In this document: positions 48,566 to 52,488 of the stretch, piece by piece
Position numbering within the stretch: the stretch's first letter is position 1
Layout of the letters: every line of letters starts with the position of its first letter
NCBI GenBank assembly: GCA_031292455.1
Contig: JARLHC010000120.1
Span: forward strand, 1-64,000
DNA: 64,000 bases
DNA from: Ignavibacteriaceae bacterium
Lineage (GTDB): Bacteria; Bacteroidota; Ignavibacteria; Ignavibacteriales; Ignavibacteriaceae
Direction of reading: 5' to 3'
The notes under the pieces: model-generated
Told to the model about the DNA's origin: nothing
Database searches by the model: none
The model's input: only the letters and a program-made list of their open reading frames with translations
Position numbers and translations under genes: made by a program

Positions 48566-49969
48566 ATGTTTGCTAATAAAAAAACGTTGTATTATTTCAG
48601 GTTGATAATCGATTTAATACTGTTAAATTTTTCTTTTATTGTCTCTGCTATATTGGCTCAGTCGTTTCATATCCTTCTATCAAGAAACCATATGTTTATT
48701 CTCGAGATGGGGCTTAATTTTGTATGGCTATTCTTTGCGAATGTTATAGGTTTTTATGAGGATACAGATGCCCGCTATTTTGCCTACCAGTTTGTAAATA
48801 TTCTAAAAAATGTATTTGTACAGGGATTTACTGCTATTATTTTCATTTTTCTAATTAAAGAAGATCTTTTTACAAGAAATTTTATTATCTATTATTCGGT
48901 TATTTTAATATTTTTAATCGGTATCAGGATTATTGTCTTCAAGATAATTATCATTTCATTGCGGAAATCAGGTAAGGGGATAAGAAATTTACTTATAATC
49001 GGGGCTGGAGAAGTAGCTTCAAATTTTCTCACTGTAGTGCAGAAGAATCCCGAATTTGGATATGATTTTATAGGTTTTCTTGATGATAAAAGTGTACCCA
49101 CAATAAGTGGAAATATATTAGGTGGTATTGACAGTCTCGAAAAAGTGATAACCGAAAAAAAAATAGATGAAGTTGTAATTGCTATTCCCGATTATGCAGC
49201 TTCTCTGCTGGATGGAATCATTAAAATCTGCAATAAGACGGCTGTAAGAACGCATATCATTCCTGACTATTTCAGATTCCTATCTAAAAAATTTAAGATT
49301 TCCATGATAGGCAATTTCCCTCTTATCAGTGTTCGCAGTGAACCTCTTGAAGAGATTCATTGGAAGGTGTTAAAAAGAACTTTCGATATATTGTTTTCTC
49401 TTATTTTTATTGTCCTCATTTATAGCTGGTTATTTCCTGTTATTGCATTTTTTCTTAAAAAAGATTCTAAAGGACCAGTTATTTTTAAACAGGATAGAAT
49501 CGGTGTAAAAAATAAAAAATTTATCTGTTATAAATTCAGGACACTGTATACAGAAAAAAAAGGAAATGAACAATTCGTTCCTGTTATTAAGGATGATCCC
49601 CGTATTACCCGATTTGGTAATATTTTAAGAAAATCTAATCTAGATGAGTTGCCCCAATTTATTAATGTTTTAAAGGGAGAAATGTCAGTTGTGGGTCCCA
49701 GGCCACATGCGATCCCTTACAATGATAAATATAAAATGATTGTTGAAGAAATAAAATTAAGACATAATGTAAAACCAGGAATTACAGGATGGGCTCAAGT
49801 ACATGGGCTAAGAGGCGATACTTTCAGCGAAGAGGAAAATACAAGACGTACAATTAAAAGGATAGAACACGATATATGGTATATCGAAAACTGGTCTTTT
49901 TGGCTTGATATACAAATTATAATTCTAACAATATGGCAAATGATAAAAGGGGATACGAAGGCAATCTGA
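48566..49969 (+). CDS. Polyprenyl-phosphate sugar-1-phosphate transferase (WcaJ/WbaP family)
   Basis: A 467-residue protein with four N-terminal membrane helices (about 10-115), a CoA-binding-like Rossmann domain (LLIIGAGEVASNFL, near 143), then one helix and the catalytic domain with KRTFDILFSLIFI, GPVIFKQDRIG, KFRTL, DELPQFINVLKGEMSVVGPRP and ITGWAQV. It moves a sugar-1-phosphate (usually glucose or galactose) onto undecaprenyl phosphate, starting repeat-unit synthesis. It ends the glycan locus; no Wzx or Wzy is in the window. Confidence 0.93.
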   Translation: MFANKKTLYYFRLIIDLILLNFSFIVSAILAQSFHILLSRNHMFILEMGLNFVWLFFANVIGFYEDTDARYFAYQFVNILKNVFVQGFTAIIFIFLIKEDLFTRNFIIYYSVILIFLIGIRIIVFKIIIISLRKSGKGIRNLLIIGAGEVASNFLTVVQKNPEFGYDFIGFLDDKSVPTISGNILGGIDSLEKVITEKKIDEVVIAIPDYAASLLDGIIKICNKTAVRTHIIPDYFRFLSKKFKISMIGNFPLISVRSEPLEEIHWKVLKRTFDILFSLIFIVLIYSWLFPVIAFFLKKDSKGPVIFKQDRIGVKNKKFICYKFRTLYTEKKGNEQFVPVIKDDPRITRFGNILRKSNLDELPQFINVLKGEMSVVGPRPHAIPYNDKYKMIVEEIKLRHNVKPGITGWAQVHGLRGDTFSEEENTRRTIKRIEHDIWYIENWSFWLDIQIIILTIWQMIKGDTKAI

Positions 49970-49991: not shown

Positions 49992-50576
49992 CTATAATTC
50001 CGAAAAATTCTTCAGCAACATTAAACCAGCTTTCTCTGATTCTTCAGGGTGGAATTGAACACCATAGAAATTATCCTTTTTAATTGCTGCTGAAAAGCTA
50101 ATTCCGTTTACTGCTGTCGCCCAAGTGTAGTCCCTAACAGGAAGATAATAAGAATTTCTGAATCTAAATTCTGCCGATCGTTCTATATTTTGAAATAGCA
50201 GGCATTCCTTTTCAATCTTTACAGTATAGTTACCAGAGAATGGGACATTTGAAATTGTATCGGTAAATTTTTCCACTATTCCCTCAAATTTTCCTAAGCA
50301 AGCAACATCACCCTCCCTTGAAAATTCACTTAATAGCTGCATTCCCAGGCCTATTCCTAATACAGGCTTTTTAATTATTCTTAGAACTGTAAAGAGATTA
50401 AGTAAATGAAGCTTTTTAACTGCCGAGAATGCTTCTTCCGTACCTGGCAGAATTATTCTCTCAGCCCCTATTATATCATTTTCATTCTTGGTTATTTTAT
50501 ACTTTATTCCAGTTAGCGTTAGAGCATTTGCCAGACCGTCAACGTTTCCAAGATTATAATCTATTATAGTTATCAT
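49992..50576 (-). CDS. hisH: HisH-like glutamine amidotransferase lacking the catalytic cysteine
   Basis: About 194 residues from ATG at 50576; a TTG at 50600 would add 8. The opening IIDYNLGNVDGLANAL is that of HisH, the glutaminase of imidazole glycerol phosphate synthase. The nucleophile elbow, normally GICLGMQ, reads GIGLGMQ here: Cys is Gly76 (codon GGC). His176 and Glu178 of the triad remain (QFHPEES). The oxyanion PGVG motif is PGTE and the PHMGWN block is VPFSGN. It probably cannot hydrolyse glutamine. No hisF or other his gene is beside it, so it may be a paralogue with another role, or a decaying copy. Confidence 0.8.
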   Translation of the reverse strand: MITIIDYNLGNVDGLANALTLTGIKYKITKNENDIIGAERIILPGTEEAFSAVKKLHLLNLFTVLRIIKKPVLGIGLGMQLLSEFSREGDVACLGKFEGIVEKFTDTISNVPFSGNYTVKIEKECLLFQNIERSAEFRFRNSYYLPVRDYTWATAVNGISFSAAIKKDNFYGVQFHPEESEKAGLMLLKNFSEL

Positions 50577-50627
50577 ATCTTTAATTTTCAATAAGAACAA
50601 TTTCTAAGCAGCCGAATGAAATCTTGT

Positions 50628-50942
50628 TTACTCTATTTCTATTAACAAATGATTTTTCATTACGGTTTCCCCTTCCTTAACATAGATTTTTTTAATTTTT
50701 CCTTCGATAGAAGAAAGTAATATGTTTTCCATCTTCATAGCTTCTAATAATAACAGGCTTTCTCCTGCCTTTACCTTCTTGCCTTCATGAACAAGTATTT
50801 TGCGAACAATACCTGGAATAAAAGCATTAATTCCCCCCGGATCATTTGGCAGGAATTTTTTTCTTCTTAGGTACTTTGATGTTAACTTAGTTTCGTATAA
50901 TGTTGAATCTATCTCAAGCGTTATTAATTTTTCTTTGTTCAT
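50628..50942 (-). CDS. Biotin carboxyl carrier protein (biotinyl domain)
   Basis: A 104-residue protein: a short N-terminal region, then a biotinyl domain with the carboxylase motif EAMKM (Lys70 to be biotinylated). It lies one base after the carboxyltransferase gene and so is surely its partner, acting in acyl-CoA carboxylation or decarboxylation. The small size is like the gamma subunit of decarboxylases or the free carrier of propionyl/acetyl-CoA carboxylases. No biotin carboxylase gene is in the window. Confidence 0.92.
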   Translation of the reverse strand: MNKEKLITLEIDSTLYETKLTSKYLRRKKFLPNDPGGINAFIPGIVRKILVHEGKKVKAGESLLLLEAMKMENILLSSIEGKIKKIYVKEGETVMKNHLLIEIE

Positions 50943-50943
50943 A

Positions 50944-52488
50944 TTAAAATGGAGGAATCCCGTGTTTTTTATTAGCCCGGTTTTCAGATTTATTTACAGA
51001 AATTTTTAATGAGTGAATCAGAAATTCTCTAGTTTCCTCAGGACTGATTACCGCATCTATATGTCCATTAGCCGCAGCAATATAAGGATTTGCAAATTTT
51101 TCTGTATACTCCTGAACTTTTAATTTTCTCATTTCATTCGGATCAGCCGCATTTAGGATTTCATTTCTAAAAATAATATTAGCTGCCCCTTCGGGTCCCA
51201 TTACTGCGATTTCAGCTGTAGGCCAGGCAAATACAAAATCAGCACCCAGATGTCTAGAGCACATAGCAATATAACCACCCCCGTATGCTTTTCTTAATAT
51301 TATAGTAATTTTAGGAACAGTGGCTTCGCTATATGAATAAAGTAATTTAGCACCGTGCCTAATAACTCCCGCATGTTCCTGATCAACTCCGGGAAGATAT
51401 CCAGGCAAGTCAACTAAAGTAATTAAAGGAATATTGAAAGCATCACAAAAGCGAATAAACCTAGCAGCTTTATCAGAAGAATCAACATCCAATACGCCAG
51501 CCATTACCATTGGTTGATTAGCTACAACTCCAACGGTTTCCCCGTCTAACCTTGCGAATCCCACAACAATATTAGCTGCCCATCGTTCGTGAATTTCAAA
51601 GAAATCTGAATCATCACATACTGCTTTTATAACATTCCTTACATCATAAGGTTTTGTTGGTACCTGGGGAATAATTTTTTCAATCTTATACAGTTCTTTG
51701 GGCCGTTTTGGTGGAAATGCTGTAGCTTTTTTTGTGTTATTCCATGGAATATAAGTTATTAATTTTTTAATCTGTTCAAAACACTCCGCTTCACTGCTTG
51801 AAAAGAAGTGAGCATTTCCGGTAATTTCTGTTTGTACTTTTGCTCCCCCAAGATCCTCCATTGAAATCTCTTCTCCAAGTACTGTTTTTATAACTTCAGG
51901 ACCGGTAATAAACATTTTTGAAATATTATCTACAACAAACACAAAATCAGTAAGAGCGGGAGAATAAACCGCGCCACCGGCACAAGGCCCTAATATTACG
52001 GAAATCTGTGGAATAACACCGGATGCTAATGTATTTCTATAAAATATTTCGCCGTACCCAGCTAAAGAATTTACTCCCTCCTGTATCCTTGCACCCCCGG
52101 AATCATTAATACCAATTAGTGGTATTCCAAGTTTAACTGCATGATCCATAATTTTAGTAATTTTTCTCGCATGCATTAAGCCTAAAGACCCGCCTGCAAC
52201 AGTAAAATCCTGTGCATATATTCCAACCGGATGACCGTATATTGTACCTGTTCCTGTAATTACGCCATCAGCAGCAAGCTGTTTTTTATCCATATCAAAA
52301 TCTTTGCATTTATGCTCGACAAATAAATCATATTCATGAAATGAATTAGGATCAAGCAAGGCTTTTATTCTTGCGCGGGCTGTCATTTTCCCCATTGACA
52401 TTTGCTTTTCTAAAGCTTTTTGTCCTCCTCCTGTTTGAATTTTTTCTTTTCTTTTGAAAAGTTCAATTATCTTTTGTGCAATTGACAT
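50944..52488 (-). CDS. Acyl-CoA carboxyltransferase (PccB/MmdA-type)
   Basis: A 514-residue protein of the carboxyltransferase family, two crotonase-like halves: GGGQKALEKQMSMGKMTARARIK at the start, DFTVAGGSLGLMHARKI and LIGINDSGGARIQEGV in the first half, and LVDLPGYLPGVDQEHAGVIRHGAK, AYGGGYIAMCS and WPTAEIAVMGPEGA in the second. These are typical of propionyl-CoA carboxylase beta chain or methylmalonyl-CoA decarboxylase alpha chain. The carrier protein follows directly. Which of the two reactions occurs cannot be told without its partner subunits. Confidence 0.93.
   Translation of the reverse strand: MSIAQKIIELFKRKEKIQTGGGQKALEKQMSMGKMTARARIKALLDPNSFHEYDLFVEHKCKDFDMDKKQLAADGVITGTGTIYGHPVGIYAQDFTVAGGSLGLMHARKITKIMDHAVKLGIPLIGINDSGGARIQEGVNSLAGYGEIFYRNTLASGVIPQISVILGPCAGGAVYSPALTDFVFVVDNISKMFITGPEVIKTVLGEEISMEDLGGAKVQTEITGNAHFFSSSEAECFEQIKKLITYIPWNNTKKATAFPPKRPKELYKIEKIIPQVPTKPYDVRNVIKAVCDDSDFFEIHERWAANIVVGFARLDGETVGVVANQPMVMAGVLDVDSSDKAARFIRFCDAFNIPLITLVDLPGYLPGVDQEHAGVIRHGAKLLYSYSEATVPKITIILRKAYGGGYIAMCSRHLGADFVFAWPTAEIAVMGPEGAANIIFRNEILNAADPNEMRKLKVQEYTEKFANPYIAAANGHIDAVISPEETREFLIHSLKISVNKSENRANKKHGIPPF

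Follow-up and report, generated by a model that had tools for sequence, protein, structure and literature searches.

A stand-alone HisH paralogue without the catalytic cysteine in Ignavibacteriales that may retain a second, histidine-independent function of an ancestral HisH

Introduction

In HisH of imidazole glycerol phosphate synthase from T. maritima, the catalytic triad consists of hC84, hH178 and hE180 and the oxyanion strand is h49-PGVG (PMC8115485, PMC9052757), with PGVG described as the HisH oxyanion strand in PMC9052757. At the boundary between the subunits, hN12 meets fD98 of HisF (PMC8115485, PMC9052757) and hW123 sits at the interface (PMC8115485). In the literature searched we found no report of a HisH pseudoenzyme or of a Cys-less HisH family, an absence that is not proof, and no relevant report of HisH moonlighting or of histidine loss in Ignavibacteria. 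Mammalian carbamoyl phosphate synthetase I contains a class I amidotransferase glutaminase domain that has no nucleophile Cys and is fused to the synthase.

Here we describe a HisH-like gene of the window, by which we mean the whole stretch of 64,000 nucleotides that was analysed, together with its relatives in the order Ignavibacteriales. The explanation that we prefer, and regard as fairly probable, is that the window protein is a catalytically dead HisH paralogue which, of the two functions of the order's ancestral HisH, keeps only the second, the one independent of histidine.

Results

A HisH-like protein without the nucleophile

The gene and the sites at which it can be compared with working HisH are:
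49992..50576, minus strand: Cys-less stand-alone HisH paralogue with class I glutamine amidotransferase fold, 194 aa plus stop
50436..50447, minus strand: PGTE (residues 44-47), a degenerate oxyanion strand where HisH has PGVG
50349..50351, minus strand: Gly76 codon, occupying the position of the catalytic Cys (T. maritima hC84); the sister species likewise has Gly
50229..50246, minus strand: VPFSGN (residues 111-116), a degenerate V-PHMGW block, which is a HisF contact (T. maritima hP119-hW123)
50049..50051, minus strand: His176 codon (T. maritima hH178), kept in the window protein and in 14/34 family members
50043..50045, minus strand: Glu178 codon (T. maritima hE180), kept in the window protein and in 24/34 family members

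The window protein is a HisH by profile, scoring 145.7 bits with TIGR01855 (NCBIfam HisH) against a cut-off of 105.4, and its AlphaFold2 model is a confident class I amidotransferase fold (pLDDT 93.5, pTM 0.91) whose best PDB match is V. cholerae HisH (4gud; TM 0.95, 39% identity). An alternative TTG start at 50600 is possible, and the ATG at 50576 fits the family. The nucleophile elbow reads GIGLGMQ, with Gly76 at the Cys position. This substitution, the PGTE and VPFSGN segments and the kept His176 and Glu178 had been pointed out in a first-pass annotation of this DNA, and all are present in the 194-aa translation. By established chemistry, the presence of Gly at the hC84 position should prevent the thioester mechanism from running; the missing nucleophile thus implies glutaminase inactivity, in agreement with the annotation's expectation that ammonia would not be released from glutamine. 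At the sites of HisF contact, P112 and Asn11 (the hN12 equivalent) are retained and N116, R138 and E179 replace Trp, Tyr and Lys.

The annotation had also suggested looking for a second, intact hisH beside hisF, and such a gene exists. The window's genome (G000; 171 contigs, 96.7% complete) encodes an intact HisH with GICLGMQ at G000:C59:33443-34018 within hisB-hisH-hisA-hisF, so that HisF is encoded in the same genome, on another contig than the window gene. Both HisH-type genes are found too in a genome of the same genus (G001), in which the orthologue of the window protein is 74% identical and has the same Gly, GIGLGMQ and VPFSG.

A Cys-less family and its neighbourhoods

The family was gathered by searching relatives, class and order and then reading the loci. 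This gave 47 rows of Cys-less stand-alone HisH paralogues from 46 genomes of the order; the Cys was absent in 47/47, and none of the loci read from the order had his genes beside the paralogue. In the alignment, Cys was missing from all 34 stand-alone paralogues and present in all 38 operon HisH of the same order, which upholds the annotation's view that more than one random change is involved. Gly, Asn, Asp, Ala, Ser, Met or Leu stands at the Cys position. Several stand-alone paralogues, that of the window included, pass the curated HisH cut-off, so there is a risk of misannotation: profile annotation would call Cys-less paralogues functional HisH, and genomes without the pathway could be credited with a histidine gene.

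On the tree the stand-alone paralogues group together beside the order's operon HisH, and a single clade for them is not rejected (AU p 0.31); the tree has a midpoint root and long branches, and finer reading of it is unsafe. One row is placed astray (L066, from G051), and it shares its gene neighbours with other stand-alone copies. Cys-keeping HisH2 genes with an adjoining HisF-like gene were observed at L089, L092, L093, L094, L095, L099, L146 and L148 and probably encode amidotransferases of surface-polysaccharide loci; the six HisH2 genes placed on the tree form a clade of their own.

Around the window gene, the following neighbours provide context only:
48566..49969, plus strand: exopolysaccharide-type sugar transferase, convergent neighbour
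50628..50942, minus strand: biotin carboxyl carrier protein (BCCP), 104 aa, 51 bp upstream on the same strand, the same neighbour in G001
50944..52488, minus strand: acyl-CoA carboxylase carboxyltransferase

The BCCP and carboxyltransferase genes lie in tandem (window 50628-52488), with no biotin carboxylase gene directly adjoining. The order of sugar transferase, HisH-like gene, BCCP and carboxyltransferase is common to the window and G001, and BCCP/carboxyltransferase neighbours of the stand-alone gene belong to the window's genus. The polysaccharide and carboxylase setting mentioned in the first-pass annotation is conserved within the genus, but it is not the general context of the family. 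Stand-alone loci differ by lineage, with thioesterase, AcsA, ClpB, MscS, sugar and carboxylase genes; a 4HBT thioesterase follows the gene in nine loci, AcsA is a neighbour in four and ClpB precedes it in three. As no neighbour is general across the stand-alone family, gene neighbourhood was rejected as a guide to function. A role in defence was likewise rejected, since PADLOC returned no match. A promoter scan around the window gene gave a signal no higher than in shuffled sequences.

Constraint has moved to Glu32 and helix 54-71

Column entropy was compared between the 34 stand-alone paralogues and the 38 operon HisH of the order. The paralogues are more divergent overall (mean column entropy 2.05 versus 1.31), and the columns of the active site and HisF contact, almost all invariant in operon HisH, are among the freest in the paralogues. 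N12, S15, P119, W123, Y138 and K181 (T. maritima numbering; residue 15 is Asn in T. maritima and Ser in the order's operon HisH) are invariant in the 38 operon HisH and free in the paralogues. Conversely, E32, K/R54, L58, N60, S/T63 and R66, together with adjacent residues of helix 54-71, are tighter in the paralogues than in operon HisH. In the window these residues fall in two features:
50481..50483, minus strand: Glu32 codon, invariant in all 34 aligned stand-alone paralogues
50364..50417, minus strand: residues 54-71, KKLHLLNLFTVLRIIKKP, the conserved face and proposed binding surface, tighter than in operon HisH

Asn60 is also invariant (34/34), and the family pattern of helix 54-71, KKLHLLNLFSxLRMIKKP, is stricter than in working HisH. 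Judging from fold topology and not from distances on coordinates, Glu32, where the helix following strand 2 starts, and helix 49-67, which follows strand 3, are expected to share one side of the sheet, away from the end that faces HisF. E32 and N60 may be structural residues (helix caps) rather than contact residues. No second copy of the helix motif was found elsewhere in the genome. The face was absent from 20 HisH of the class's other families and from Bacteroidota.

Such a conserved set of polar residues (E32, N60, R66, K70), together with the presence of His176 and Glu178 in the window copy, might be expected if the old fold had become a new enzyme whose chemistry has changed, either at the original site or at another one. 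We consider this unlikely: no constant residue takes the place of the Cys, His176 is retained in only 14 of the 34 paralogues, and the stand-alone copies of one genus (g30; L147, L153, L154) are shortened to about 150 aa, having lost the His/Glu subdomain while retaining the face. These comparisons make catalysis at the old site unlikely, since that site varies across the family and tolerates outright deletion.

Independence of histidine synthesis

A stand-alone copy without an operon-type Cys HisH was present in 29 genomes, and the HisB dehydratase domain (PF00475) was missing from every tested genome that has only the stand-alone copy. The complete, single-contig genome G026 encodes neither HisF nor HisA, its sole strong PF00977 protein being a HisA-like one that is found class-wide. 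Retention of the stand-alone copy in genomes without HisF indicates that the family does not depend on HisF. These observations bear on two related proposals of the first-pass annotation, namely that the protein is a structural or allosteric partner of HisF or that it uses free ammonia through HisF. An inactive or regulatory subunit of this kind, binding HisF, using free ammonia or regulating HisF, and competing with intact HisH, would be consistent with the HisH fold (TM 0.95 to a HisH), with the presence of HisF in the genome and with Asn11. But family members survive in genomes without HisF and HisB, the equivalents of W123, Y138 and K181 are lost in the window copy and are drifting in the family, and the stand-alone copy is never beside hisF. 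HisF is thus probably not the partner, and we rate the whole proposal as improbable, somewhat more so than a new enzyme.

The C156 locus (G000:C156:33089-33838; L060:9090-9839, minus strand) encodes a third PF00977 protein of the genome, HisA-like and 28% identical to HisA, with clear relatives in most of the class genomes searched, even those without any his operon. It was rejected as a partner because it is class-wide, occurs also where HisH is absent and gives no sign of a link. No PF00977 gene was found in the window's contig stretch.

For each genome of the order the face was scored as E32, K/R54, H/Q57, N60, S/T63 and R66, with E32 decisive. In 44 genomes an operon HisH combines Cys and face and there is no stand-alone copy, in 17 a faceless operon HisH with Cys accompanies a face-bearing stand-alone copy, and in three a faceless HisH occurs by itself, without any stand-alone copy; a face-bearing operon HisH together with a stand-alone copy was found in none (0 genomes). 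The Fisher p for this complementary pattern is 8e-13, a value that ignores the kinship of related genomes. On the tree the independent changes are few: there are four independent pairs, of which about two are informative, both as predicted, and a sign test is not significant. The pattern is therefore better read as one gene's history than as many independent trials.

The operon HisH of the window's genus branches within the clade of face-bearing proteins and no longer has the face, with Glu32 replaced and the helix reading NRLHDNNLFGFLREIKKP, as expected once the stand-alone copy had taken that role. The remaining faceless operon HisH mostly fall outside that clade, some of them among HisH from other phyla, which makes it likely that their his operons were acquired later.

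Retention of the paralogues

Between close pairs of stand-alone paralogues dN/dS is 0.04-0.19, which points to purifying selection. Decay of a duplicate that is heading for loss and has been retained by chance would account for the fast divergence, for the in-frame stop in one copy and for the genomes without the gene. This explanation is largely contradicted and seems to us very improbable: besides the low dN/dS, reading frames are intact in nearly all copies, E32 and N60 do not vary even though identity to the window protein is just 27-51% for most members, and copies occur in many genera belonging to two families of the order. The interrupted copy (L096:3042-3631, G029) has the stop near its end together with a frame change and may reflect decay or assembly error. 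No HisH match was obtained in eight of the order's 109 good genomes, the complete G002 among them, indicating that the second function is dispensable somewhere and not universal. In G002, G309, G058, G025 and G034 (92-99% complete), searches for HisH gave matches to GuaA only or none.

One base can separate a Cys codon from this Gly codon, but the idea that Gly76 reflects faulty sequencing or assembly, or a mutation that recently arose in a working HisH, has a negligible probability and is refuted: a Cys in close relatives, which the annotation had named as the refuting result, was sought without success, the sister species G001 has the same Gly and Cys is missing throughout the family.

Discussion

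We have characterized a HisH-like protein that, judged on sequence, is a HisH-derived pseudoenzyme and should not be filed as HisH, because the Cys, the HisF contact and the his context all fail despite its passing the profile. It is a homologue without a catalytic residue that is nonetheless under purifying selection. Among the options of the first-pass annotation, a new function fits best, and the protein is probably a non-enzymatic binding, scaffold or regulatory protein.

On balance we favour a history in which the Ignavibacteriales HisH is, or descends from, a bifunctional protein that both supplied ammonia to HisF and had a glutaminase-independent binding function on Glu32 and helix 54-71, and in which this second function was strong enough for the dead gene to be kept once histidine synthesis had been lost or taken over by another HisH. 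The ancestral HisH of the order would have gained the face and so become bifunctional. Upon loss of the histidine pathway, or in the presence of a second HisH, the copy with the face would then have persisted as a stand-alone gene from which the Cys disappeared. The window protein would be a case of subfunctionalization, retaining the second function and discarding the first. Less certainly, helix 54-71, which is hydrophobic and basic and flanks the alpha/beta fold, may be the docking site of a partner; a role for this helix in binding or as a scaffold would be the best-supported mechanism. If this history is true, a subunit of a textbook biosynthetic enzyme has a concealed second role across a whole bacterial order, and evolution has already split the two roles in several lineages, providing ready-made single-function proteins.

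Comparison with described systems places the window protein close to, and apart from, each of them. It is like HisH of imidazole glycerol phosphate synthase (TIGR01855; 1gpw, 7ac8, 4gud) in fold, in length, in its 145.7 bits and in the His and Glu of the triad, but it has no Cys and its oxyanion strand and HisF-contact blocks are degenerate, while its family lies outside the his operon and is present without HisF. The HisH2/HisF2 amidotransferases of surface-polysaccharide loci are likewise HisH paralogues outside the his operon, and occur in the same order (L089, L092-L095, L099); they differ in keeping the Cys, in having an adjoining HisF-like gene and in forming a separate (starred) clade, whereas the window protein has neither the Cys nor a PF00977 neighbour. 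The carbamoyl phosphate synthetase I domain is fused to its synthase, whereas the window protein is free-standing and carries a conserved face that is new. Finally, the window protein resembles pseudoenzymes in general, in which a catalytic residue has been lost and selection kept, with a likely role as scaffold or regulator (reviewed in PMC10211241).
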